Assembly (NCBI RefSeq): GCF_004145845.1
Contig: NZ_SELP01000003.1
Coordinates: forward strand, 248,001-312,000
Length of the DNA: 64,000 nucleotides
Direction of reading: 5' to 3'
Origin: Loktanella sp. IMCC34160
Lineage (GTDB): Bacteria; Pseudomonadota; Alphaproteobacteria; Rhodobacterales; Rhodobacteraceae
Made by a program: the position numbers and the translations under genes. The notes under the pieces are model-generated. The model searched no databases and was not told the origin of the DNA. It worked only from the letters and a program-made list of their open reading frames with translations. Below, one piece after another: positions 17,956 through 61,011 of this stretch; positions within the stretch are counted from its first letter, which is position 1; every line of letters starts with the position of its first letter.

Positions 17956-18785
17956 CCCAGCACCGCGGCGCGGGTGTTCACATCCACCTCGGGCCGGACA
18001 CCGAACCAGCGTTCAAACCCCGGCACGCCCTGATGCAACAGCATGCCCAGCCCGTCGACGGTGATGCAGCCCGCCGCATCGGCGGCCTCCAACAGCTTGG
18101 TCCGCAGTGGGGCATAAACGATATCCGTGACGACTGTTCCGGGGCGCAGCCCGTCCAGCGGCACCCGGAATTCCGGCGCGCCGACCATGCCAAGGGATGT
18201 CGTATTGACGACCGTCGCGGCCTGTTCCATCGCGTTTCCGGCCTTGACCCAGTCGACGACGCGCACCTTCTTTCCAAAGGCCGCGCGCAATTCGTCCGCC
18301 TTGGGGCGGGTGCGGTTGGTCAGGATGATGTCCATCGCGCCCGCTTCCATCAGGGCGACGATAACAGCCCGCGCGGCACCGCCCGCGCCAAGAACCAGCG
18401 CCGGACCGGCATTGGGTTTCCACCCCGGCGCGCCTTGCTTCAGGTTTTCCAGAAATCCGTAACCGTCTGTATTATCGGCATGAATCTTGCCATCCGCCCG
18501 GAACGTCAGCGTATTCGCCGCCCCGATCAATGTGGCCCGGTCGGTGATCTGATCGGCGATCTCCAGCGCGGCCACCTTATGCGGGATGGTGATGTTCACC
18601 CCCCGAAACCCCATCTTCGGCAGGGTTCGCAGCACGGTCTCAAGGTCATCCGGTTCCACGTGCAGCGGGACATAATGCCCCGCGATCCCGTAGGTCCGCA
18701 GCCAATGGCCGTGCAGACGCGGGGATTTCGAATGGGCGATGGGCGCGCCGATAACACCGGCAAGGGGGATCTTATGGTCACTCAT
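17952..18785 (-). CDS. aroE: Shikimate dehydrogenase (NADP+)
   Basis: A 277-residue AroE with the substrate motif SKSPRLHG near residue 20, the catalytic lysine in [15 protein letters not shown] near residue 103 and the nucleotide-binding GAGGAARAV. It reduces 3-dehydroshikimate in aromatic amino-acid synthesis. It overlaps maf and coaE by four bases each (ATGA). Confidence 0.96.
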
Positions 18786-19381
18786 GACGGCAATGTTCCG
18801 CGAAGCGAGAGGTAAGACAAGAGTTCCAAGAGCGGCAGACCCAGAACGGTGAAATAATCCCCGTCCACGCGGGCGAACAGCCGGGCGCCTTCCTCCTCGA
18901 GCTTATATCCGCCGACACTGTGGCGAATGCTGTCCCAGTTCCGATCCACATAATCGGCCAGATAGGCGTCGGACAGGCTCCGCATCGTCAGACGCACCTT
19001 CCCGACAAACCGCCACTGCGGCTCTGCCTCTACATAGATCACCGCGGCGGACAGCAGCTCGTGGGTCTTGCCGCGCATCGCCTGCAGTTGCGAAAGGGCC
19101 TCCTCGGGCGTCCGCGGCTTTGACAGGATCGTCCCGTCGAAGGCCAGCACCTGATCGCAACCGATGACCAGCGCCTCGGGATGTTTGCCGGCGATCTTCC
19201 GGGCCTTCATCTCGGCCAGCGCATCCGCGATATCGCGCGGCTTGGCTCCTTCCGCCAGAAGCGCGGACTTGATCGCCTCTTCATCCACGCGCCCGGGGAT
19301 CACCTCGAAGTTCACGCCGGCGTTCCGCAGCAGCGTGGCCCGGATTTCAGAACCAGATGCCAGGATGATACGGTCAGTCAT
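18782..19381 (-). CDS. maf: Maf family nucleoside triphosphate pyrophosphatase
   Basis: A 199-residue Maf protein: the N-terminal [15 protein letters not shown], a DEEAIK block and [10 protein letters not shown], which carries the catalytic aspartate. Maf proteins hydrolyse non-canonical or modified NTPs to monophosphates and were first linked to septum formation. ATG at 19381 is preferred; an upstream in-frame start at 19462 lies in the probable origin. The start codon touches a perfect DnaA box (19381-19389). Confidence 0.92.
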
Positions 19382-19778
19382 GTGGATAATCCTGCGGGTA
19401 AGCCTTTGGGCAATCATCGGGATGGTTCTGTGACTTCTAGGGCCGCATGGGTCCAAGTGCAATTTCGCTGTTCAAACGGCAGAGTCACCAATGGGTTTTC
19501 CACGGTGGGAAAGGACAAGTCGGGGGATGTGGACGAATCCGGTGTCCGAGGCGAGTCAAGATAGCTTCTTTTGTCTTTGCGTTTTCCATAGGTGATTAAA
19601 CCTATGAAAATATTAGTAAAACTGATCCCCCGGAAAACCCAATACCCTCCACCACGGTTAACAAACGTGGGACAACTCAGGGGAAAACTTGGGAAACACG
19701 GCTTATCCCCACCCCAAACAACATCATCTTTCTTTTCTTTATCTTTTATATTTTAAGAAGGGCAGACAGGGGGACCTC
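19381..19778. other. Probable chromosomal replication origin (oriC)
   Basis: This is the only gene-free stretch above 300 bases. It holds a perfect DnaA box on the minus strand (TGTGGATAA, 19381-19389), a one-mismatch box TTATCCCCA at 19703-19711, and two-mismatch boxes at 19496-19504, 19528-19536 and 19582-19590. GANTC sites occur at 19482, 19535 and 19553. A 7-bp inverted repeat lies at 19587-19606, and there are AT-rich tracts at about 19597-19630 and 19726-19757. Genes on both sides point away from it. The maf-aroE-coaE-dnaQ-secB order beside the origin is what I remember for Caulobacter, where hemE lies on the other side; here it is hemJ-rho. Origin function is inferred. Confidence 0.8.
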
Positions 19779-20249
19779 ATGATCGCATTGAAAGACTGGA
19801 TCATTGATCTGCTGATCGCCGGTTATCCCTGGATCAAATCCCTGCACATCATCTCTGTCATTTCATGGATGGCGGGAATGTTCTACCTGCCGCGTCTGTT
19901 CGTCTATCACGCCGAACGGGCGACGGTTGGGTCAGAACTGGACCAGACCTTCCAGATCATGGAACAGAAATTGCTGCGGGTGATCATGAACCCGGCGATG
20001 ATCGCGACATGGATCTTTGGTCTTTGCCTTGTGTTCACACCGGGGATCGTGGACTGGTCTCAGCCTTGGCCCTGGGTCAAGGCCTTCGCCGTGATCGTGA
20101 TGACCTGGGCGCATCACTGGCTGGCCCTGCGGCGCAAGGAATTTGCCGCTGGCACCAACACCCGGACCGGCCGGACCTACCGCCTGATCAACGAAGTGCC
20201 GACACTGATGATGTTCCTGATCGTCTTCTCCGTCGTGGTGAAATACTGA
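19779..20249 (+). CDS. hemJ: Protoporphyrinogen oxidase HemJ
   Basis: A 156-residue membrane protein with about four helices. The conserved N-terminal block IKSLHIISVISWMAGMFYLPRLFVYH contains the histidines, and the HHWLALRRKEF loop the basic residues, typical of HemJ (UPF0093). HemJ oxidises protoporphyrinogen IX in the inner membrane in organisms lacking HemY or HemG. ATG 19779 follows an AGGGGG ribosome site. It is the first gene on the right-hand side of the probable origin. Confidence 0.92.
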   Translation: MIALKDWIIDLLIAGYPWIKSLHIISVISWMAGMFYLPRLFVYHAERATVGSELDQTFQIMEQKLLRVIMNPAMIATWIFGLCLVFTPGIVDWSQPWPWVKAFAVIVMTWAHHWLALRRKEFAAGTNTRTGRTYRLINEVPTLMMFLIVFSVVVKY

Positions 20250-22946: not shown

Positions 22947-24824
22947 GTGTTTCACGTGAAACATCGCGACTTCGACGTAATCGTGGTTGGCGGCGGACAT
23001 GCCGGAACCGAGGCCGCTCATGCCGCCGCCCGCACCGGCGCGCGCACAGCCGTTGTCACCCTGCGCCGTGACGGGATCGGGGTCATGTCCTGCAACCCCG
23101 CCATCGGCGGGTTGGGCAAGGGTCACCTCGTCCGCGAGATCGACGCGCTTGACGGCGTGATGGGTTTGGTCGCCGACCTTGCCGGGATTCAATTCAGGCT
23201 TTTGAACCGCAAGAAAGGGCCAGCCGTCCAAGGCCCGCGCGCTCAGGCCGACCGGGCGATCTACCGCCGGGAAATGCTGCGTCTGACCGAGACGCAAGAC
23301 AACCTCTCGATCGTCGAGGGCGAGGCAACTGACTTCATAATGGATGGCGACCGTGTCGCAGGCATTCAACTGGCGGACGGATCGGGCATATCGGCGGGGG
23401 CCGTCGTTCTGACCACCGGAACATTTTTGCGCGGGGTCATCCACATCGGTGACGTCTCCAGGCCGGGCGGGCGCATGGGCGAACAACCCTCCGTCGCCAT
23501 GGCGGACCGGCTCTATGGGTTCGGCCTGCCAATCGGGCGGCTGAAAACCGGAACGCCGCCGCGTCTTGACGGCAGAACCATCAATTGGGACGGGCTTGAA
23601 ATGCAGCCCGGTGACGACGATCCGGCGCTGTTTTCCTTCCTGTCCAAGGGGGTGTCCGCGCGCCAGATTTCCTGCGGCATCACCCACACCAACGGCACGA
23701 CCCATGACATCATCCGGGAAAACCTGTCCCGCTCGGCGATGTATGGTGGCCATATCGAGGGGGTCGGTCCGCGCTATTGCCCGTCGATCGAGGACAAGAT
23801 CGTGCGCTTTGCCGACAAGACATCGCACCAGATTTTCCTTGAACCTGAAGGGGTTGATGATCCGACGATCTATCCAAACGGCATTTCAACCTCGCTGCCC
23901 GTCGATGTGCAAGAGGCCTATGTCCGCTCGATCAAGGGGTTGGAACAGGTGGCGATTACCCAGCCGGGCTATGCCATCGAATACGATTATGTCGATCCGC
24001 GCGCGCTGACCCACACCCTGTCGTTGCGCGACGTGCCGGGCCTGTTTCTCGCCGGGCAGATCAACGGAACCACGGGATACGAAGAGGCCGCGGCGCAGGG
24101 CCTTGTTGCCGGGCTGAACGCCGCGCGGCTGGCCACGTCGCTTGATCCGATCGAATTCAGCCGAATCGACAGCTATATTGGCGTCATGGTGGATGATCTG
24201 GTCACGCGCGGGGTCTCGGAACCCTACCGCATGTTCACCTCGCGCGCCGAATTCCGCCTGTCCCTGCGCGCGGACAATGCGGACCAGCGACTCACCGAAA
24301 AGGGACGCGAGGCCGGTCTCGTCGGCACTCCCCGGTGGGAGGCATTCTCGGCCAAGCTCGATCAACTCAAGCAGGCCAGGGCGCAACTTTCCGATATCAC
24401 CCTTTCGGCCCGGCAGATTGCCGGGGCTGGGGCGAACCTGAACCCCGACGGCCCAAGCCGCTCCGCGCTCGACGCCCTGTCCCTGAACGATTTCGAGTTC
24501 GCGCATCTGACGTCCCTCGCGCCCGAAGCGGCTGATATTCCGGCGGAGATTGCGGAACAGGTAAAGCGCGACGCGCTTTACGCGCATTACATCGCCCGGC
24601 AGAACCGCGATATCGAAGTGCTGCGCAAGGACGAGGCCGTGCTTATCCCGGAAACCCTTGATTTCAAAGACATCTCGGGACTTTCGACAGAGTTGGCAAC
24701 CAAGCTGTCCAAGGTGCGGCCGTCCAATATGGCGCAGGCGGCGCGGATCGACGGGATGACGCCCGCGGCCCTGATGCTGGTTCTTTCGAAGATTCGGCAG
24801 ACCGAAAAGGCACGTTCGGCATGA
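22947..24824 (+). CDS. mnmG: tRNA uridine-5-carboxymethylaminomethyl modification enzyme MnmG (GidA)
   Basis: A protein of about 625 residues with the FAD-binding [15 protein letters not shown] near the N-terminus, the [14 protein letters not shown] block, and the C-terminal MnmE-binding region. It is the partner of MnmE in tRNA wobble-uridine modification. The annotated-style start is GTG 22947, giving MFHVKH, but the AGGAG at 22943-22947 overlaps that codon; in-frame GTG 22956 has an 8-base spacing and may be the true start. Either way the start lies on a parS palindrome. It ends with an ATGA overlap into rsmG. Confidence 0.96.
22948..22963. promoter_or_regulatory. parS site 1 (ParB-binding centromere)
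   Basis: A perfect 16-base palindrome TGTTTCACGTGAAACA, identical to the consensus parS bound by chromosomal ParB. It is about 3.2 kb from the probable origin and covers the first codons of mnmG. parA and parB are encoded 2.5 kb downstream. Confidence 0.95.
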
Positions 24825-25444
24825 CCTCGGTCGCAACCGGGGCAGGGGATGTTTCACGTGAAACATATGACCGGCTCAAGGCCTTTGAGGGGTTGGTGGC
24901 AAAGTGGTCGCCCCGGATCAATCTGGTCTCGAAATCCGATCTTTCGGATATCTGGGGGCGGCATATCCTCGATTCGCTCCAGCTCGTTCCGCTTGTGCCA
25001 GGAGCGCCCCAAAGTTGGGTGGATCTTGGGTCCGGTGGCGGGTTTCCGGGTATCGTCATTGCCATCGTGGCGCGAGACCATTGGCCGGATTTGACCACGA
25101 CCCTAATCGAAAGCGACCAGCGCAAGGCGACCTTCCTGCGCACGGCGATCCGCGAGCTGGATCTTGCGGCCACTGTCCGGACCGAACGGATTGAAGAGGC
25201 GCCACCGCAGGCCGCGGATGTGCTGACCGCGCGTGCACTTGCCGCGCTCGACGGTCTTTTTGCCTATGCAGAACAACACCTTGCCCCCGATGGCGTTGCA
25301 ATCTTTCCAAAAGGGCGCCGCGCTGACGAGGAAATCGCGCAGGCCCGGGAAAATTGGACCTTTGATCTTCAGGAAACGCAAAGTATCACCGACCCCGAGG
25401 CAAGAATCCTAACCGTCAGGAATATCAAACGTGCCAGACCTTAG
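24821..25444 (+). CDS. rsmG: 16S rRNA (guanine-527-N7) methyltransferase RsmG (GidB)
   Basis: A 207-residue Rossmann methyltransferase with the SAM motif [11 protein letters not shown] near residue 67, the [10 protein letters not shown] block that binds RNA, and [10 protein letters not shown]. It methylates G527 of 16S rRNA; loss gives low-level streptomycin resistance in other bacteria. The N-terminal residues DVSRET are encoded by the second parS palindrome. It overlaps mnmG by ATGA and parA by 14 bases. Confidence 0.96.
24850..24865. promoter_or_regulatory. parS site 2 (ParB-binding centromere), inside rsmG
   Basis: A second perfect copy of TGTTTCACGTGAAACA, 1902 bases from the first, within codons 10-15 of rsmG, where it encodes VSRET. 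Two identical sites flanking mnmG upstream of parAB make a compact partition locus. Confidence 0.95.
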
Positions 25445-26231
25445 CCGCGTCAGCGCTCCGAAAATCATTGCCATCGCCAATCAAAAAGGTGGCGTGGGCA
25501 AGACGACAACGGCGGTGAATCTGGCTGCGGCGCTTGCGGAATCGGGGCAGCGCGTCCTGTTGATCGACCTTGATCCGCAGGGGAACGCATCGACCGGGCT
25601 TGGCATCGAACGCGACCAGCGCGATTACACCACCTATGACCTGATGGCCGGAGACGCGCCGGTTTTTGACGTGGTCAAGGAGACCGGCTTCGAAAACCTG
25701 CTGATCGTTCCGGCGAATACCGACCTCAGCTCCGCCGATATCGAGCTGATTTCGAACGAAAAACGCAGCTTCCTGCTACATGACGCGTTGCGCCAATCCG
25801 CGATGGACGCCTTCGCGCTTGACTACATATTGATAGACTGTCCGCCCAGCCTCAACATATTGACAGTCAATGCCATGGTCGCTGCCCATTCCGTACTGGT
25901 GCCGCTGCAAAGTGAATTCTACGCGCTGGAAGGTCTGTCGCAGCTGATGCTGACCCTGCGCGAGGTCCGCCAGACCGCGAACCCGAACCTTCGGATCGAA
26001 GGCATCGTCCTGACCATGTATGACAAGCGCAATAACCTGTCCCAGCAGGTCGAGGCGGATGCACGCGACAACCTGGAAGGGCTGGTTTTCGAAACCATGA
26101 TCCCCCGGAACGTCCGGCTGAGCGAGGCGCCGTCTTTCGCCATGCCGATCCTGCAATACGATCCGGCCTCGAAGGGAAGCGAAGCCTATCGCGCCCTTGC
26201 GGCCGAGTTGATTCAAAGAGAAACCGCTTAG
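25431..26231 (+). CDS. parA: Chromosome partitioning ATPase ParA (Soj)
   Basis: A 266-residue deviant Walker-type ATPase: KGGVGKTT at residues 19-26 with its signature lysine, Walker A' VLLIDLDPQGN, and DCPPSLNILT. It forms the nucleoid gradient that moves ParB-parS complexes. It starts with GTG 25431 inside the end of rsmG and is followed 13 bases later by parB. Confidence 0.96.
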   Translation: MPDLSRVSAPKIIAIANQKGGVGKTTTAVNLAAALAESGQRVLLIDLDPQGNASTGLGIERDQRDYTTYDLMAGDAPVFDVVKETGFENLLIVPANTDLSSADIELISNEKRSFLLHDALRQSAMDAFALDYILIDCPPSLNILTVNAMVAAHSVLVPLQSEFYALEGLSQLMLTLREVRQTANPNLRIEGIVLTMYDKRNNLSQQVEADARDNLEGLVFETMIPRNVRLSEAPSFAMPILQYDPASKGSEAYRALAAELIQRETA

Positions 26232-26244
26232 GAAAGGACATCCG

Positions 26245-27138
26245 ATGGCCGAGAAAACGAACCGGAATCGCGGCCTTGGGCGCGGTCTGTCCGCGCTGAT
26301 GTCCGATGTGACCGCCACCAACGATGCCAACCCGGCCGCCCCCGCGAAGCCCGACCAGATGGTGCCGGTCGACCGGATCCGGCCAAACCCGGACCAGCCC
26401 CGACGCAGCTTCAATCAGGACGCGCTGGAAGAATTGGCCGCGTCGATCCGCGAAAAGGGCGTGATCCAGCCGTTGATCGTGCGGACGGACCCGAAAGATC
26501 CCGCCCTGTTCGAAATCGTCGCGGGCGAGCGCCGTTGGCGCGCGTCACAGATCGCCAAACGGCATGAAGTCCCTGTAATCGTTCGGGAATTCACCGACTC
26601 TGAGGTTCTGGAAGTCGCCATTGTCGAAAACATCCAGCGCGCCGACCTGAACCCGATTGACGAGGCCGCGGGCTATCGCCAGTTGATTGACCGGTTTGGC
26701 CACACGCAGGAACAACTTGCCTCGGCCCTTGGCAAAAGCCGCAGCCATATCACCAATCTGATGCGCCTTCTGACGCTGCCGCAGGCCGTTCAGACCCATG
26801 TCGTCGAAGGCCGGATGAGCGCCGGCCACGCCCGAGCGCTGATCGGGCGGGACGATGCAGAGGCGCTGGCGCGGAAGGTGATCGCCGAAGGCCTGTCGGT
26901 GCGCGAGGTCGAAAAGTTGGTCAAGGCGCCAACACCGAAGCGCCCCGCGCAAAACCGGTCCAGCGGACCAGCCCGCAAAGATCCCGATACGATCCAGATC
27001 GAAAAGGAGCTTGGCGCGACGCTGAAGATGGATGTCAGCATCGACCACGCCGAAGGGCAGGAAAGCGGCAAGCTGACGCTACGATATAAGTCATTGGAAC
27101 AATTGGACGATCTGCTTCGGCTTTTGTCCGGGGGCTAG
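26245..27138 (+). CDS. parB: Chromosome partitioning protein ParB (Spo0J)
   Basis: A 297-residue ParB: an N-terminal ParA-interacting stretch (RGLGRGLSALMSDV), the CTP-binding ParB/Srx domain with box II GERRWRAS near residue 93, the helix-turn-helix LASALGKSRSHITNLMRLL, and a C-terminal dimerisation domain after a basic linker. It binds the two parS sites upstream and spreads as a CTP-dependent clamp. Its TAG stop is interleaved with the stop of convergent hemW (CTAG, 27135-27138). Confidence 0.96.
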   Translation: MAEKTNRNRGLGRGLSALMSDVTATNDANPAAPAKPDQMVPVDRIRPNPDQPRRSFNQDALEELAASIREKGVIQPLIVRTDPKDPALFEIVAGERRWRASQIAKRHEVPVIVREFTDSEVLEVAIVENIQRADLNPIDEAAGYRQLIDRFGHTQEQLASALGKSRSHITNLMRLLTLPQAVQTHVVEGRMSAGHARALIGRDDAEALARKVIAEGLSVREVEKLVKAPTPKRPAQNRSSGPARKDPDTIQIEKELGATLKMDVSIDHAEGQESGKLTLRYKSLEQLDDLLRLLSGG

Positions 27139-40009: not shown

Positions 40010-40480
40010 TTAGTCATCCATGAGGATCTTCAGCATCTGAACCTCACCGTCGATGAGCTTGCCCGTGCGGACAAACCCGGATTTCTGGTAGAACCCTTCT
40101 GGCCCGTCCGGCTGATCCACGAAGGACAGGCTGACGCGGGGCAGGCGCCATTCACGCGCAACCGCCTCGGCCTCGGCAATCGCCGCGCGTCCATAGCCTT
40201 TGCCCTGATAGTCTGCCCCGATCAAAAGCCGCCAGATATAGGCGGATTCGCGGTCGTCGGCCTCTTCCGGCTCGGGGTATCTGGACATGTCGATCATCGC
40301 GAGCAACCCGACAGCCGTATCCCCATCCCAAAGCCCCCAAACGGCAGAGGCCGGTTCCTAGGCTTGCTGCGCGATGGTGATTTCATTTGGCGCAACAAGG
40401 GGTTGCTGGTTTTCCAGAACCTTGAGGCGGAACAGCGCCCGGAGCGAATTTCGATCGACCGGGCGCCGTTCCAATGCCAT
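40010..40480 (-). pseudogene. GNAT N-acetyltransferase interrupted by an in-frame TAG (spermidine/spermine acetyltransferase-like)
   Basis: Read from ATG 40480, which shares a base with the argG stop (TGATG), the frame gives 40 codons ending NEITIAQQA, then TAG at 40358-40360, then EPASAVWGLWDGDTAVGLLA and a full GNAT core: the acetyl-CoA loop region DYQGKGYGRAAIAEAE and the C-terminal GFYQKSGFVRTGK, ending at 40010. Both sides of the stop align with one family; relatives usually have an aromatic residue (AYEP-like) there, so a single base change from a tyrosine codon is the simplest cause. An internal ATG at 40306 could start only a fragment of 98 residues. Pseudogene, sequencing error or stop read-through are the options. 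Confidence 0.85.
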
Positions 40481-43250: not shown

Positions 43251-43967
43251 TTACTTCTGGCAGCCAGCCTCGAACACGGCGAGCGCCTCGGGCGAAAGTT
43301 CCCGGCCGCCGGTGGCGTCGTTCAGCGCAACGTTCTTCGCATCCGCAAGAACCAGATACTGGTCGATCGTGGTCTTGTCGGCTTCAAGCGACAGGTTGGC
43401 CTGTTGCAGGGTCGAGATCTGACCGTTGATCGCGTCGATCTCGGACTGCTGGGTGGTCGGGTCAAGCCCGGCCAGCTGGCCCTGTAGATCGGTGATCGCG
43501 CCAGTGTTCTGCGTGATCGTGGCGTCGATCACGGCGACCTGACCGGCAAGCTCTTCATCGCTCAGCGCCGACAGTTCCGGCGACAGGGCGTCGCGGGCGG
43601 TGTCTGCTTCGGCTTTGGCGACATAGAAGGTGCTGATACGGCCAACGTTGCTGTTCGCACTGGCGTTGGCCATTGCGTTTTCATTGGCGCACATGGCGTT
43701 GAGATTGCGCAGTTCGCGGGCAATCGCGCCGTTACCATTTGCGCCGGGGTTCTCGGGGCGGCCGGTGTTCTGGCTGTTGCCGCGCTGTTCAGAGCCGCGG
43801 TTGGTGCGGTCCCGGTCACGTCCACGGTTGGAGTTTCCGTTCCCGTTTCCGTTCCCCCGGCCGGCAGCAAAGGCTGTGTCGGCAGAGGCGATGAAGGTGA
43901 CTGTGCTGACCGCGGTCAGCGACAGGGCAGCGCATAGAGTGGCGGAAAGCATTTTGCGAGTGATCAT
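43251..43967 (-). CDS. Secreted Gly-Asn-repeat protein, copy 1 (uncharacterised family)
   Basis: A 238-residue protein. Residues 1-35 are a signal peptide ending ADTAFA. Then comes a low-complexity segment, [19 protein letters not shown] and a further polar stretch, the motif IARELRNLNAMCANENA, a helical, probably coiled-coil region of about 130 residues, and the end GGRELSPEALAVFEAGCQK. Two cysteines near both ends could form a disulfide. A related protein is encoded at 60472-61011 with the same four-part plan. I recognise no named family. It has its own terminator, and the start is ATG 43967. Confidence 0.85.
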   Translation of the reverse strand: MITRKMLSATLCAALSLTAVSTVTFIASADTAFAAGRGNGNGNGNSNRGRDRDRTNRGSEQRGNSQNTGRPENPGANGNGAIARELRNLNAMCANENAMANASANSNVGRISTFYVAKAEADTARDALSPELSALSDEELAGQVAVIDATITQNTGAITDLQGQLAGLDPTTQQSEIDAINGQISTLQQANLSLEADKTTIDQYLVLADAKNVALNDATGGRELSPEALAVFEAGCQK

Positions 43968-44029
43968 GGCGTCCTCAATATTGATTTGGCAGGTGGCTGC
44001 TCTAGCCTTTGGCATCAGAAAAAGGAAAA

Positions 44030-44070
44030 ATTGCGGCGAATCTAGGTTTATGCTTGGGAACCGCCGCAAT
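44030..44070 (-). promoter_or_regulatory. Terminator-like hairpin upstream of the first Gly-Asn-repeat protein gene
   Basis: Arms ATTGCGGCG (44030-44038) and CGCCGCAAT (44062-44070) with a 23-base loop; on the minus strand the stem is followed at once by TTTTCCTTTTT. It lies about 60 bases before the start codon at 43967 in the gap to divergent hslO. It could be a leader attenuator, or the end of a short RNA. Confidence 0.5.
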
Positions 44071-47131: not shown

Positions 47132-48973
47132 ATGTTCCGCTTCTTTGAAAATCTTATCGATCCCTTTGCCGCCCGTGATTCCGGCACACCGCCCGCAACG
47201 CTGTGGGCCTTCTATCGCGAAGCCATGCGCCCGTTCCGGCGCATCGTCCCTTGGCTGTTGCTGACGGGCCTGATTGTCGCGCTGTTTGAGGCGGCGATGA
47301 TCTGGTACGCCGGGCGGCTGGTGGACGTGATGAACGCGACCGGCGCCGCCGATTTCTGGGCGACCCACAGGGTGGAAATCCTGATCGTCGCTTTCGCGCT
47401 GACCTTCCTGCGGCCCGCTGCGATCCTTGCCCAGCACGCGTTTCTTGAACTGACCCTTGCCGGAAACATGCAGGAGCGGGTCCGTTGGCGAGCGCATAAA
47501 CACATGCTGGGTCAGTCGATCGGGTTCTTCCAGAACGACTTTGCCGGACGCCTGTCGAACCGGGTGATGAAACTGTCGGAATCCACCGAAGACAGCATGT
47601 ATATGATGTTCGAAGGGGTCTGGTATGCCCTGTCCTACGCCGTCACCGCCGTGATCCTTGTGTCGGGGATCGACTGGCGTGTCGCTGTTCCCTTGGTGAT
47701 CTGGCTGACGGCCTATGCCAGCTATACCTATTGGACCGCCGTTCGCGTGTCGAAGGCATCGGAAAAATGGTCCGATGCGCGGTCGCTGGCCAATGGTCGC
47801 ATCGTGGACGCCTATACCAATATCGAAACGGTCAAGCTGTTCAGCAATGGCGAACAGGAAGAGGCCTTTGTCCTCAACGCGCTCAAGCGGCTGCGCCTGC
47901 GGTTTCACCGGTTCCTGCGGCTGATGACAGAACTGTCCTTCGCCCTGAACGTGATCAACGCGATCCTGTTCGTAGGCGTGATCGGCGCCGCTGTCTGGCT
48001 TTGGACCAATGGGCAAAGCACCGTGGGCGAGGTCGCGGCGGTGACCGCGCTGGCCGTGCGGCTGAACGGTATGTCGGGCTGGATTCTGTGGGTCACCGTG
48101 CGCCTGTTCGAACACGCAGGCACGGTGCGCGAGGCGCTGCAATCCGTGTCCGTTGACCATGCGGTGACGGATAAGTCCGACACGCGTCTGACGGTCACGG
48201 ATGGCGCGATCCGCTTTGACAATCTTGTGCACCACTATGGCAAGGGTGTTGGCGGGATCGACGGGATCACGCTGGACATCGCGCCGGGCGAAAAGGTCGG
48301 TCTGGTTGGCCGGTCGGGGGCCGGGAAATCGTCGCTGGTTAACCTTTTGTTGCGGTTCCGCGACCCTGAAGGCGGGGTGATCCGCATTGACGGGCAGGAT
48401 ATTTCCCAGGTCACGCAGGACAGCCTGCGCAAGGCGATCGGCGTGGTGACGCAGGACAGCTCGCTTCTCCATCGGTCGATCCGGGACAACATCCTTTACG
48501 GCAACCCCCTTGCCAGCGACGAAGAGATGTTCGCGGCCGCCCGCAAGGCCGAGGCGCATGACTTTATCCTGTCGCTGGAAGATCCCGGTGGCCGGTCCGG
48601 CTATTCAGCCTATGTTGGCGAAAGGGGCGTGAAGCTGTCCGGCGGACAACGGCAGCGGATCGCGATTGCCCGAGTGATGCTGAAGAACGCGCCGATCCTT
48701 GTGCTGGACGAGGCGACATCGGCCCTGGATTCGGAAGTGGAGGCGGCCATTCAATCGACCCTATACGGCATGATGCAGGGCAAGACGGTGATCGCGATTG
48801 CGCACCGCCTGTCCACCATCGCCCAGATGGACCGGATCGTTGTCATGGATCGTGGCCGGATCGTCGAACAGGGCAGCCATGATGCGCTTCTGGATCACGG
48901 CGGAATCTACGCCGGTCTGTGGCAGCGCCAGTCGGGCGGGTTCCTGGGCGACGAGGCGGAGGCCGCGGAATAA
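47132..48973 (+). CDS. ABC exporter, fused membrane and ATPase domains (half 1)
   Basis: A 613-residue type IV exporter half: six predicted membrane helices in the first 330 residues, then an ATPase with Walker A GRSGAGKS near 393, signature LSGGQ near 503 and Walker B ILVLDEATSALD. All catalytic motifs look intact. It overlaps a second such gene by one base (TAATG), so the two are made together and probably dimerise. Lipid or multidrug export is typical; the substrate is unknown. Confidence 0.9.
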   Translation: MFRFFENLIDPFAARDSGTPPATLWAFYREAMRPFRRIVPWLLLTGLIVALFEAAMIWYAGRLVDVMNATGAADFWATHRVEILIVAFALTFLRPAAILAQHAFLELTLAGNMQERVRWRAHKHMLGQSIGFFQNDFAGRLSNRVMKLSESTEDSMYMMFEGVWYALSYAVTAVILVSGIDWRVAVPLVIWLTAYASYTYWTAVRVSKASEKWSDARSLANGRIVDAYTNIETVKLFSNGEQEEAFVLNALKRLRLRFHRFLRLMTELSFALNVINAILFVGVIGAAVWLWTNGQSTVGEVAAVTALAVRLNGMSGWILWVTVRLFEHAGTVREALQSVSVDHAVTDKSDTRLTVTDGAIRFDNLVHHYGKGVGGIDGITLDIAPGEKVGLVGRSGAGKSSLVNLLLRFRDPEGGVIRIDGQDISQVTQDSLRKAIGVVTQDSSLLHRSIRDNILYGNPLASDEEMFAAARKAEAHDFILSLEDPGGRSGYSAYVGERGVKLSGGQRQRIAIARVMLKNAPILVLDEATSALDSEVEAAIQSTLYGMMQGKTVIAIAHRLSTIAQMDRIVVMDRGRIVEQGSHDALLDHGGIYAGLWQRQSGGFLGDEAEAAE

Positions 48974-50820
48974 TGCGTGAGGCCTATAAGACGTGGTTGC
49001 GCTGGGCCGGGGGGCTGATCCCCTCGCCCCAGCCGGCCATCGGTGCGCCGCCCCGCACCCTGCGCGCCTTTATCAACTGGTGTCTTCGGGGCAGCTGGCG
49101 GGTTATCCTGATTGCCGCGCTGGTGTCTGGCGTCGCCGGGGCGACCGAAGTGCTGGCCATGTTCTTTCTTGGGAAGGTGGTCGATATCGCCTCTGCCGGG
49201 GACGGGCTTGGCGGTTATGGGTCGCTTCTGATCTCGGCGCTTATTCTGCTGGTGTTGGTTCGGCCCATTGTTTTTGGACTGTCGGCGACGTTCCAATCCG
49301 TCGTGCTTGGCCCGAATATCTTTCGGCTGGTCCTGTCGCGCCTGCATTCCTGGACGCTTGGTCAATCCGTCACCTTCTTCGACAATGATTTCGCCGGGCG
49401 GCTTGCGCAAAAGCAGATGCAGACCGCCACCTCCCTGACCGAGGTAGTGATCGAGACAGTCAACGCCATTCTCTTCGCGCTGGCCTCGGTGATCGGGGCG
49501 GCGGTTCTTGTGGCCTTTGTTGATGCCCGGTTGCTTGTCGTTCTTGGCCTGTGGTTCGCGGTCTATCTGGGGTTCCTGCGGCTTTTCCTGCCGCGGATCC
49601 GGCTGCGGTCCAAGGCGCGGGCCGGGGCGCGGGCACAGGTCACCGGGCAGGTCGTGGACACGATCACCAATATCAAGACGGTGAAACTGTTCGCCGGGGA
49701 CCGGCACGAAGAGGACGCGGCCCATACCGCGATGGAGGCGCTGTGGGAACGGGCGCTGGATTTCGGTGAGGTTTCGACCCTGTTCCGGTTCGGCCTGATC
49801 ACGCTTGCGGGCATCCTGCCGGTGACGATGGTCGGTTTCGGCCTTGTCTGGAGCCTGTCGGGTAGTGTCACGCCGGGCGATATCGCCGCTATCGGCGCGG
49901 TGTCCATCCGGCTGAGCCAGATGACCGGCTGGGTCAGCTTCACGTTGATGGGGATCTACAGCCATCTGGGCGAGGCCGAGGACGGGATGCGCACCCTGAC
50001 CCCGCCCTATGCGTTGACCGATGCGCCCAATGCCGCGCCGCTGGCGGTGACGCGGGGAGAGATCACTTTCGACAATGTCAGCTTTGGCTATGGGCGCGAC
50101 ACCGGGGGGATCAGCGACATTTCCCTTCGGATCGCGCCGGGCGAGAAACTGGGGATCGTTGGCGCTTCTGGCGCAGGGAAATCAACCCTGGTTTCGCTGC
50201 TTTTGCGTCTCTACGATGCGGAAGAAGGGCAGGTTCTAATCGATGGGCAGGACCTTCGCGGTGTGACCCAATCCAGCCTGCGCGCCGCCATCGGAATGGT
50301 CACGCAGGAAACCGCGATGTTCAACCGGACCGCCCGCGAGAATATTCTCTACGGTCGTCCCGACGCGTCCGAGGAGGAGATGATCGCCGCCGCCCGCAAG
50401 GCCGAGGCGCATGAGTTCATCACCGGCCTGCGCGACAACAAGGGGCAAACCGGCTACGACGCCTTTGTTGGCGAGCGGGGGGTGAAGCTGTCCGGTGGTC
50501 AACGGCAGCGCATCGCGTTAGCCCGCGCCATGCTGAAAGACGCGCCGATCCTTGTTCTGGACGAGGCGACATCGGCGCTGGATTCCGAGGTCGAGGCAGC
50601 GATCCAATCGGCGCTTCAGCGCGCGATGGAGGGAAAGACCGTGCTGGCCATCGCGCACCGCCTGTCCACGATTTCCGACATGGACCGGATTATCGTCCTT
50701 GAAAACGGGCGGATCGTCGAACAAGGAAGCCATGACGACTTGCTGGCGCTGGGCAGAACATATGCCCGCTATTGGAACCGGCAGTCGGGCGGGTTTATCG
50801 GAACGGACAGCGACGCATGA
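48973..50820 (+). CDS. ABC exporter, fused membrane and ATPase domains (half 2)
   Basis: A 615-residue protein of the same layout as the preceding gene: Walker A GASGAGKS near residue 397, LSGGQ near 506 and LVLDEATSALD. Both halves share sequence such as FFxNDFAGRL in the coupling region and very similar C-termini (RQSGGF), so they arose by duplication. ATG 48973 overlaps the TAA stop of half 1; an in-frame upstream start at 48919 is rejected. It ends with an ATGA overlap into the methyltransferase gene. Confidence 0.9.
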   Translation: MREAYKTWLRWAGGLIPSPQPAIGAPPRTLRAFINWCLRGSWRVILIAALVSGVAGATEVLAMFFLGKVVDIASAGDGLGGYGSLLISALILLVLVRPIVFGLSATFQSVVLGPNIFRLVLSRLHSWTLGQSVTFFDNDFAGRLAQKQMQTATSLTEVVIETVNAILFALASVIGAAVLVAFVDARLLVVLGLWFAVYLGFLRLFLPRIRLRSKARAGARAQVTGQVVDTITNIKTVKLFAGDRHEEDAAHTAMEALWERALDFGEVSTLFRFGLITLAGILPVTMVGFGLVWSLSGSVTPGDIAAIGAVSIRLSQMTGWVSFTLMGIYSHLGEAEDGMRTLTPPYALTDAPNAAPLAVTRGEITFDNVSFGYGRDTGGISDISLRIAPGEKLGIVGASGAGKSTLVSLLLRLYDAEEGQVLIDGQDLRGVTQSSLRAAIGMVTQETAMFNRTARENILYGRPDASEEEMIAAARKAEAHEFITGLRDNKGQTGYDAFVGERGVKLSGGQRQRIALARAMLKDAPILVLDEATSALDSEVEAAIQSALQRAMEGKTVLAIAHRLSTISDMDRIIVLENGRIVEQGSHDDLLALGRTYARYWNRQSGGFIGTDSDA

Positions 50821-53885: not shown

Positions 53886-54031
53886 CGACATTTGCCTGAA
53901 CCAAGGCGGAAAACACCCGATAACCCTTTGCATCAACCGATTTTCCTGATTAATCCGACGATACGAGGTAAGTCTTGGGTGCCTGCCGTCGCCCTCAACA
54001 TATGGCGGCGGGCAAAAACTGGAGAAAACAC

Positions 54032-54238
54032 ATGAAGAAAATCGCTCTCGCCATTGCTGGCTTTGTCGGTTCGGCTTCCGCTGCCCTTGCTGGTGGCATG
54101 GCTGCTCCCGTCATGGAAATGGAACCGGTCATCGTTGAAGAAGCCGCTGGCTCCTCTTCCTCGGCCGGCCTGATCATTCCGCTGATCCTGATCGCGCTGA
54201 TCGCCGCCGCTATGTCGTCGTCGTCGACCGCCGAATAA
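54032..54238 (+). CDS. Small exported protein with a C-terminal membrane helix (uncharacterised)
   Basis: A 68-residue protein: a signal peptide MKKIALAIAGFVGSASAALA, a short acidic stretch with methionine-proline residues (MAAPVMEMEPVIVEEA), a serine linker, then a membrane helix GLIIPLILIALIAAAM ending SSSSTAE. GGAGAA precedes ATG 54032 by 7 bases. The gene uses GCT for alanine often, unlike the GCC/GCG of its neighbours, which suggests strong expression, and a double hairpin follows. TTGCAT (53928) and TAATCC (53951), 17 bases apart, could be its promoter. Similar short proteins occur in Rhodobacteraceae as I recall; no function is known to me. Confidence 0.8.
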   Translation: MKKIALAIAGFVGSASAALAGGMAAPVMEMEPVIVEEAAGSSSSAGLIIPLILIALIAAAMSSSSTAE

Positions 54239-54239
54239 T

Positions 54240-54290
54240 TCAAACTTCGGTTTGAGTTTGGAAGGGCAGAGGTTTTCCTCTGCCCTTTTG
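54240..54290 (+). terminator. Double hairpin ending in a strong intrinsic terminator
   Basis: First hairpin: TCAAAC and GTTTGA closed by a TTCG loop (54240-54255). Second: an 11-bp perfect stem AAGGGCAGAGG/CCTCTGCCCTT with a TTTT loop at 54262-54287, followed by TTG. It ends the small-protein transcript; the UUCG hairpin before it may stabilise the mRNA. Confidence 0.9.
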
Positions 54291-56290: not shown

Positions 56291-57019
56291 ATGCTGTTGG
56301 AAAGCGTGGTTCGCACGATCTATCCGCCCGGCTGTGTCCTGTGTGGGCATCCGACCGAGGCAGATTTCGGCCTGTGTGGGACTTGCTGGTCTGATGCGGA
56401 TTTCCTTGATGGGGCGGTCTGCATGGGTTGCGGGGCGCCGGTGCCTGGACCCTCTGATGCTGTGGATCTTGTCTGCGAAGACTGCCACCGGATTGCCCGA
56501 CCCTGGCACAGGGGCCGGGCGGTTGCGCGCTATTCCGGGTCGGTGCGCAAGATGATCCTGTCCCTCAAGCACGGCGACCGGGCGGAAATGGCCCGTGCGG
56601 CGGGGCCGATGCTCGCGCGGGTCGCGGCGGCGCTTCCCATTGGCGATGCGCCGGCGATTGTTCCCGTGCCGCTGCATTGGACCCGGATGCTCAAACGCCG
56701 GTTCAATCAATCCGCCCTCTTGGCACAGGCAATGGCAGGGCGGCTGCCGGGGGCCGCTTATGCACCCGATGCATTGGTCAGGGTGCGTCGGACGGCCTCG
56801 CTTGAAGGTCAGGGCCGGGATGAACGGTTTGCAACCTTGCAGGAGGCAATCCGTCCCCACCCGCGACAGGGGGGTGTTCTGGCCGGGCGATCCGTCCTGA
56901 TCGTCGATGACGTGATGACATCCGGCGCGACCCTTGCCGCCGCGACCGAGGCGGCACATGCCGCGGGCGCAACACAGGTTTGTGTCTTGGTGCTAGCGCG
57001 CGTGGTGAAAGATACCTAG
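56291..57019 (+). CDS. comF: ComF family phosphoribosyltransferase-like protein
   Basis: A 242-residue protein. Its N-terminal zinc-finger region has paired cysteines (CVLCGH, CGTC, CMGCG, CEDC), and the phosphoribosyltransferase-like domain carries VLIVDDVMTSGAT near residue 202. ComF proteins are needed for DNA uptake in naturally competent species and are widespread elsewhere with unclear roles. It diverges from the NDUFAF5-like gene by 24 bases. Confidence 0.88.
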   Translation: MLLESVVRTIYPPGCVLCGHPTEADFGLCGTCWSDADFLDGAVCMGCGAPVPGPSDAVDLVCEDCHRIARPWHRGRAVARYSGSVRKMILSLKHGDRAEMARAAGPMLARVAAALPIGDAPAIVPVPLHWTRMLKRRFNQSALLAQAMAGRLPGAAYAPDALVRVRRTASLEGQGRDERFATLQEAIRPHPRQGGVLAGRSVLIVDDVMTSGATLAAATEAAHAAGATQVCVLVLARVVKDT

Positions 57020-57049
57020 ATAGTCGGAAACCCTTTCTGCGAGGCTCCG

Positions 57050-57307
57050 ATGAAACCTGTCGAAATCTACACCACCCCGACCTGCGGCTTTTGCCATGCG
57101 GCCAAGCGGCTGCTGGCGTCCAAGGGCGTGCAGTTCAAAGAGATCAATGTCGCGGGTGACATGGACCTGCGCGCGGCGATGATTCAGCGGTCGAATGGTG
57201 GGCGGACAGTGCCGCAGATCTTTATCGGCGATCAGCATGTCGGTGGCTGCGACGACCTTTATGCGCTTGACCAGATGGGCAAGCTTGATCCGCTGCTGGC
57301 CGCGTGA
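57050..57307 (+). CDS. grxC: Glutaredoxin 3
   Basis: An 85-residue glutaredoxin with the active site CGFC at residues 12-15 (CPYC is more common), the TVPQIFI cis-proline motif and GGCDDL glutathione-binding end. It reduces mixed disulfides with glutathione. The stop shares bases with the GTG start of the next gene (GTGA). Confidence 0.95.
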   Translation: MKPVEIYTTPTCGFCHAAKRLLASKGVQFKEINVAGDMDLRAAMIQRSNGGRTVPQIFIGDQHVGGCDDLYALDQMGKLDPLLAA

Positions 57308-60353: not shown

Positions 60354-60471
60354 TTCAGATTGCGATCCAAACCGCCCAAGTAACGCCCCATTCACGCTGT
60401 CTTTGAACCATCTTCATCGCCCATCCTGAAACCACGATTCGATGAAATCCCTTTCAGGACCAGAGACTGCC

Positions 60472-61011
60472 ATGTCTGTGCCTTCCATGATTAAGCCGCT
60501 TCTCGCCGCGACGCTGTGCGTCGTTTTGGGCGTTGCCGCGAACCTGACCGTGCCGTCCATTGCCGAGGCCGGAAACGGCAATGGGAACGGCAACGGAAAC
60601 GGCAACGGAAACGCCAATAGCAACAACGGCCGCGGCCAGACCGCACGCGAGCTGCGCGGCGCCAACGCCGCCCGCAACAATGCATCCAACCCGGCAGGGA
60701 ACTCGATGCCGGCGAAGCTGGCGGTCTATCGGCAGTCCTATCTGCAGGCGGCTGCGACGCTCGACAATGCACAGGCGCTCTATAACCAGTACCAGCAATT
60801 GGCCACGATGACCGATGCCCAGATTGCGGCGGCCTTCCCCAGTGGCGGCTACGAGGCGGCGGTGTCGGCGGCGGCGGTTGCCTACAACGGCGCACTGTCT
60901 GATGCGCAGGGTGCTCAGGGTGTCATGCAGCAAAGCCTTGCCGCCCTGACCGACGGGCGCGACCTGTCCCCGGCGGCACTGGCCGAACTTCACCAGATGC
61001 TGGGTCTCTGA
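60472..61011 (+). CDS. Secreted Gly-Asn-repeat protein, copy 2 (uncharacterised family)
   Basis: A 179-residue protein: signal peptide to about residue 34 (ending IAEA), then [20 protein letters not shown], the motif [16 protein letters not shown], a helical region with [16 protein letters not shown], and the end [19 protein letters not shown]. Plan, repeat and both motifs match the protein at 43251-43967. It has no cysteine. An AGGA at 60457-60460 precedes ATG 60472; ATG 60442 is an alternative that would put charged residues before the signal. Its 5' region carries a 7-bp inverted repeat (60425-60431 and 60452-60458) covering that ribosome site. Confidence 0.85.

Follow-up and report, generated by a model that had tools for sequence, protein, structure and literature searches.

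A probable chromosomal replication origin between maf and hemJ in a Rhodobacteraceae genome

The maf-hemJ gap and its surroundings

The window, which is the whole stretch of 64,000 nucleotides that was analysed, covers bases 248001-312000 of a 580-kb contig (C11) from a genome of 3.77 Mb in 21 contigs. Within it, maf and hemJ are transcribed away from each other and leave 397 bp between them. The genes maf-aroE-coaE-dnaQ run leftward from this gap and hemJ-rho-mnmE-mnmG-rsmG-parA-parB run rightward, such that the gene map carries both the leftward order and the outward-facing operons that an earlier note on this DNA had described. The genes maf, hemJ, parA and parB were named by Pfam, and aroE, coaE, dnaQ, rho, mnmE, mnmG and rsmG by reading their translations. 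The features of the locus are as follows.

18782-19381, minus strand: maf (Pfam Maf, 3.4e-47)
19381-19389, minus strand: exact DnaA box that shares one base with the maf start codon
19382-19778, no strand assigned: candidate oriC, the 397-bp gap between divergent maf and hemJ
19393-19401, minus strand: degenerate DnaA box with two mismatches, 12 bp from the exact box and partly conserved in the alignment of relatives
19482, 19535 and 19553 (span 19482-19557), no strand assigned: GANTC (CcrM-type) sites from a pattern scan
19496-19504, plus strand, and 19528-19536, minus strand: central DnaA-box cluster, two mismatches each, within a conserved block
19582-19590, plus strand: degenerate DnaA box with two mismatches, outside the conserved blocks
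19665-19759, plus strand: conserved core of boxes and AT-rich tract, matched by the profile R1 (E 3.5e-14)
19703-19711, plus strand: DnaA box TTATCCCCA with one mismatch, pointing toward the AT-rich tract
19719-19730, plus strand: C-phased trinucleotides CAA CAT CAT CTT, possible variant DnaA-trios
19723-19758, plus strand: AT-rich tract, the presumed unwinding element; conservation in the gap peaks in the 20-bp bin that begins at 19721
19779-20249, plus strand: hemJ (Pfam UPF0093, 1.3e-60)
22948-22963, no strand assigned: exact parS in the first codons of mnmG (M-F-H-V-K-H)
24850-24865, no strand assigned: exact parS in codons 10-15 of rsmG (V-S-R-E-T)
25431-27138, plus strand: parA and parB (Pfam)

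The gap has a GC content of 0.48, with 50-bp bins down to 0.36-0.40, against 0.59-0.69 for the 2-kb bins of the window, and AT-rich DNA, as noticed earlier, is present, with a tract at 19723-19758. The gap had also been called the only long gene-free stretch. Five other stretches of more than 200 bp fall outside the ORFs conserved in the relative G001 (39.7-40.4 kb, 43.3-44.0 kb, 60.4-60.9 kb, 53897-54255 and 57017-57288). Three of these five contain ORFs or coding sequence: 39.7-40.4 kb codes for SCP2 and GNAT proteins, and ORFs are present at 43.3-44.0 kb and 60.4-60.9 kb. The comparison is a rough one, given that it used stop-to-stop ORFs, which overrun start codons and can hide gaps, and kept those with a homologue in G001. 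Neither a tRNA nor an Rfam family at gathering score was found in the 64-kb window.

Elsewhere in the window, the ORFs at 60442-61011 (plus strand) and 43251-44069 (minus strand) each encode an apparent signal peptide followed by glycine-asparagine repeats and look like secreted paralogues; the second gave no Pfam match. At 47132-50820 there are two ABC transporter genes, with membrane and ATPase domains, that G001 lacks at the corresponding position, in a stretch that is syntenic otherwise.

DnaA boxes were scored against TTATCCACA, and those with up to two mismatches were counted. The gap holds six, compared to a mean of 1.27 in 1000 dinucleotide shuffles, of which one reaches six. The exact box and the one-mismatch box reported in the earlier note were recovered, and the boxes with two mismatches, given there as three, number four (19393, 19496, 19528 and 19582). 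Since that note had chosen the gap for its boxes, a blind scan was also run. The window was divided into 1272 overlapping 400-bp bins; the highest count, six boxes, occurs in just three of them, which start at 19201-19351. The runner-up, at 40051, has five boxes with two mismatches each, as many as a bin at 321.6 kb of the contig, and no bin exceeds five in 20 sampled stretches of the same contig. In short, a cluster of DnaA boxes lies here in an intergenic gap that adjoins maf, is AT-rich and is close to parAB and parS.

The genome has two parS sites and no more, even when one mismatch is allowed. Both lie inside coding sequence and within 5.1 kb of the gap, and together with parAB they occupy the region 3-5 kb to its right; the six relatives searched likewise have two sites each. 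The dnaA gene is 187 kb from the gap (C11:454 kb). A further match to the DnaA domain, weak and under the curated threshold, falls in a frame of 198 amino acids (C18:100300-100602) that is perhaps the DnaA inactivator HdaA. On contig C9 (711538-711847), two DnaA boxes, one with a single mismatch and one exact, stand about 300 bp from each other ahead of a gene that reads by eye as nrdR, and this pair is perhaps a DnaA-controlled promoter.

The CtrA consensus TTAA-N7-TTAA is absent from the gap at up to one mismatch, and three matches to the loose form TTWW-N7-TTWW occur there, in AT-rich DNA. A single loose IHF match is found in the gap at 19412, and none to a stricter pattern. The GANTC sites average 6.3 per kb over the gaps of this genome and 56 relatives, compared to 1.4 per kb in the window, a difference that takes no account of base composition. 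The site at 19553 is conserved in 23 of these 57 gaps, as against 8-12 of 57 at five control offsets, and this apparent conservation is suggestive only. Given that ccrM is placed near the origin in Rhodobacterales in the available part of PMC8116508, the three GANTC sites of the gap make control of a candidate origin by CcrM possible.

A conserved core among changing neighbours

Relatives were collected by a scan for hemJ, and the best 80 of 186 loci, labelled with Rhodobacterales genera, families or broader names, were fetched. Five have no maf within the stretch examined. In 56 of the other 75, maf and hemJ flank a gap of 337-401 bp as they do here, and in 19 the interval is longer: 13 contain hemE only, five have ppsR and hemE around the gap, the Caulobacter arrangement, and one (L078) has ppsR only. 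The order maf-ppsR-gap-hemE-hemJ-rho, found in five of the 80, is taken as ancestral. Together, the 56 short and 19 longer layouts suggest that the flanks form a series of gene losses around a constant gap. The earlier suggestion that hemJ-rho takes the place of hemE is not borne out, as the same five relatives keep hemE beside hemJ-rho and hemE itself persists in this genome 249 kb from the gap (C11:516979). No match to ppsR (PF03618, COG1806), the pyruvate-phosphate-dikinase regulator, was found anywhere in this genome, given as 99.99% complete; PF03618 is found in 88 of 142 sampled alphaproteobacteria.

Alignment of the 57 gaps reveals four conserved blocks, which are the box at the maf start, the central box pair, the right box pair, and the consensus CATCATCATC followed by T-rich DNA. 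Counted by eye, 44 of the 57 (the window included) have a box with up to one mismatch at an offset of 0-1 relative to the start of maf.

A profile built from sequence only, R1, was made from 33 of the 57 right-hand blocks, picked for diversity. In this genome it has a single match at E up to 10, which is the gap, with an E-value of 3.5e-14; the training set contained this sequence itself. At E up to 0.01 it matches 93 of 120 genomes of the family, 92 of them exactly once. The remaining 27 have no match; hemJ, detected in 92 of the 120, is present in 18 of them. Both R1 and hemJ were matched in 74 genomes, and in 73 of these the R1 match shares the strand of hemJ and ends 10-96 bp ahead of the hemJ match; in the exception (G099) about 1.06 kb separates them, the size of hemE. 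No hemJ match was obtained in 19 of the 93 R1-matching genomes. At the best R1 loci, maf and rho flank the block in 20 of 20 cases, and three of these are without hemJ, which suggests that the block is not tied to hemJ. In the relatives at L160, L166 and L169, hemJ is missing beside the block, which sits between maf and rho.

In a sample of the class, 43 of 142 genomes match R1, mostly weakly, at 49 places. In genomes with ppsR, which was located independently of R1, there are 21 such places; 17 of them, each in a different genome, are 204-480 bp upstream of ppsR in divergent orientation, and the remaining four are not beside ppsR. The other 28 are in genomes lacking ppsR, including the genome studied here and G147, where the arrangement is maf-block-hemJ. 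At the eight best loci outside the family (E 2e-8 to 1.2e-4), ppsR is on one side of the block and the other side is hemE in seven and rho in one. When ppsR loci were taken regardless of R1 (the best 30 of 88), the divergent gene was hemE in 29 and rho in one. The 17 of 21 places beside ppsR therefore suggest that a profile trained between maf and hemJ also picks out the Caulobacter-type origin locus in some of the other families. According to the accessible portion of PMC1914354, the origin sequences described there are alike only among close relatives.

The AT-rich tract and a possible trio variant

The basal unwinding system set out in the part of PMC8287927 that was available consists of a DnaA box plus DnaA-trios, with box, spacer and trio units on one strand. 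A similar arrangement is found at 19703, where the box is followed on the same strand by an 11-bp spacer and then by eight NTN units; with six units or more, no second place of this kind occurs in the window. The arrangement fits the published combination of a box, a spacer of up to 16 bp and at least three trios with a middle A. The conserved units here differ from that system in that they look C-phased (CAT, CAA, CTA), and trios lacking the middle adenine were already suspected in the same partial source.

Long runs of the published type were considered as the conserved feature and rejected: runs of at least five units on the plus strand occur in 13 of the 57 gaps, including that of the window, and their place varies, although runs in relatives were counted only at five units or more whereas the published minimum is three. 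The longest run of C[A/T][A/T] averages 3.95 units over the 57 family gaps compared to 1.89 after shuffling, above all 100 shuffles. Runs with a middle T are also above all 100 shuffles (5.72 compared to 4.46), and RWW control runs are not raised (3.23 compared to 3.00). Given that the 57 gaps are related sequences, they amount to far fewer than 57 independent observations.

Loci beyond these gaps give a weaker signal. In 18 hemE-type relatives the C-phased mean is 2.22, compared to 1.89 for shuffles and 2.33 for the largest shuffle. The value for the eight loci from other families is circular, since those loci were picked by R1, which contains the tract. In the ppsR loci (best 30 of 88, picked without R1), the C-phased mean is 2.40 compared to 1.84, above all 200 shuffles. 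At least four C-phased units occur in five of these 30 loci, with three of 30 on the opposite strand and three, four and one of 30 for the GWW, TWW and AWW controls. Runs with a middle T in the same 30 loci average 3.90 toward hemE, compared to 3.89 shuffled, and 4.57 on the opposite strand, compared to 3.95.

These values permit a tentative and rather doubtful joint reading, in which alphaproteobacterial origins would share a core that outlives its flanks, with hemE, ppsR and hemJ each lost somewhere, and in which the Rhodobacteraceae unwinding tract would be a C-phased trio variant, 5'-(C[A/T][A/T])n-3'. As part of the same speculative proposal, the other strand would present 3'-GWW-5' units that keep a first G rather than a middle A. 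DnaA might then step three bases at a time along the C-phased tract, as on canonical trios. If so, the unwinding rule that was first described in Bacillus would have to be relaxed. No work on trios in alphaproteobacteria was recognised among the open-licence papers listed.

Placing the origin and comparison with known systems

The most probable function of 19382-19778 is that of the chromosomal replication origin of this Rhodobacteraceae genome, to which a probability of about 95% is given. The earlier placement of an origin between maf and hemJ is supported by box density, parAB and parS, gene order, the profile R1 and, in some relatives, GC skew. Within the family R1 is single-copy and position-specific; in other families its matches fall on the origin locus of ppsR and hemE.

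Skew was among the checks proposed with the original claim, and its outcome is mixed. A left/right difference is present in this genome, weakly (one-sided p 0.034), but the minimum is displaced: within the window the cumulative GC skew is lowest at 40342, which lies 21 kb right of the gap in, or next to, coding DNA, and the contig, judged from 20 sampled stretches and the window, splits best at about 288 kb compared to 267.4 kb for the gap. In G001 (record EL129, a 3.9-Mb contig), which is syntenic over most of the window, the skew minimum across 140 kb falls at 3621760, within the orthologous gap, which starts near 3621395 and stops short of hemJ at 3621807. In G009 the distance between the local minimum and the block is 1.65 kb; it is 21.5 kb in G061 and 45.6 kb in G055, a genome in which hemJ was not matched. 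A contrast of sampled half-chromosomes gives a one-sided p of 0.0011 in G001 and 0.0061 in G002 (Yoonia vestfoldensis SKA53). With samples taken every 150-200 kb, the six top-ranking origins span 3575-3700 kb in G001, where the gap is at 3621.6 kb, and 2425-2550 kb in G002, where it is at 2373.6 kb, such that the best sampled origin of G002 is 50-175 kb right of the gap. The minima in or near the gap in G001 and G009 mean that skew supports the locus in some relatives, while the skew of this genome is weak and about 21 kb off.

That displaced minimum could be read as marking an origin near 40 kb of the window, and the bin at 40051 has the second highest box count there. The stretch codes for the SCP2 and GNAT proteins and lies beside an ORF that reads by eye as argG, no box with up to one mismatch occurs between 36.3 and 52.4 kb, and the syntenic G001 has its minimum in the maf-hemJ gap; an origin at this place was rejected as highly improbable. 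A different objection accepts the block and denies its function: it might be a regulatory region of hemJ or maf, a promoter or leader with boxes for transcription control, while replication starts elsewhere. The near-constant distance to hemJ, 10-96 bp in 73 of 74 genomes, and the box that overlaps the maf start codon are what such a region might show. Against this, 19 of 93 block-bearing genomes gave no hemJ match, and the three inspected have maf-block-rho; hemE stands between the gap and hemJ in 18 relatives; the block in other families is beside ppsR, with hemE or rho opposite, in the eight inspected; and a scan of 19300-19800 found no sigma-70-like promoter or terminator. A purely regulatory block is thus very unlikely, if slightly less so than an origin at the skew minimum.

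In many bacteria oriC adjoins dnaA, and an origin beside dnaA (C11:454 kb), or at one of the genome's other box clusters, has that common arrangement in its favour. The 4 kb around dnaA contain no box with up to one mismatch, and the four other clusters of close boxes (two on C16, one on C10 and one on C9) have at most three boxes per 400 bp, in a scan that used TTWTCCMCA only for the rest of the genome. With no dense cluster at any of these places, they were rejected, and an origin there is scarcely credible.

If the maf-hemJ gap is the origin, DnaA-ATP would bind three groups of boxes: one next to maf (19381-19401), a central one (19496-19536) and a right-hand one (about 19667-19711). From the plus-strand box at 19703, DnaA would extend onto the adjoining trinucleotide and AT-rich tract (19719-19758) and open it. 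The helicase would then be loaded and forks would leave both ways, co-directional with maf-aroE-coaE-dnaQ on the left and with hemJ-rho-mnmE-mnmG-rsmG-parAB on the right. ParB bound to the two parS sites 3-5 kb away would segregate the copied origins.

The analysis places the likely origin of this genome from sequence, and R1 offers a way to find the probable oriC of draft Rhodobacteraceae genomes, in which the skew signal may be weak. The genes hemE and COG1806, which mark alphaproteobacterial origins, can vanish while the putative origin core stays. Among the open-licence papers listed, neither a maf-adjacent origin proven by marker frequency nor a series of flanking-gene losses around a shared core was recognised.

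In Caulobacter crescentus, Cori is between hemE and COG1806, according to the available parts of PMC1914354 and PMC4468827. The present locus resembles Cori in being syntenic with it via the relatives that keep hemE and ppsR, in its outward genes and in its several weak DnaA boxes. It differs in that hemE and ppsR are gone from the flanks, with hemE at C11:516979 and PF03618 not found in the genome, in that an exact DnaA box is present, and in that CtrA consensus sites are absent. By Ori-Finder, with parAB proximity among the criteria, oriC was assigned in 101 of 109 strains, as given in the portion of PMC6699656 at hand. The closest parallel is within the family: in the accessible text of PMC4793288, on Ketogulonicigenium vulgare Hbe602, an oriC beside maf is described by DoriC as conserved in Rhodobacteraceae, with the same adjoining gene as here. 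A maf-adjacent oriC is already in print, which makes the locus an ordinary one; the finding holds, and it falls at the place already known for the origin in Rhodobacteraceae.
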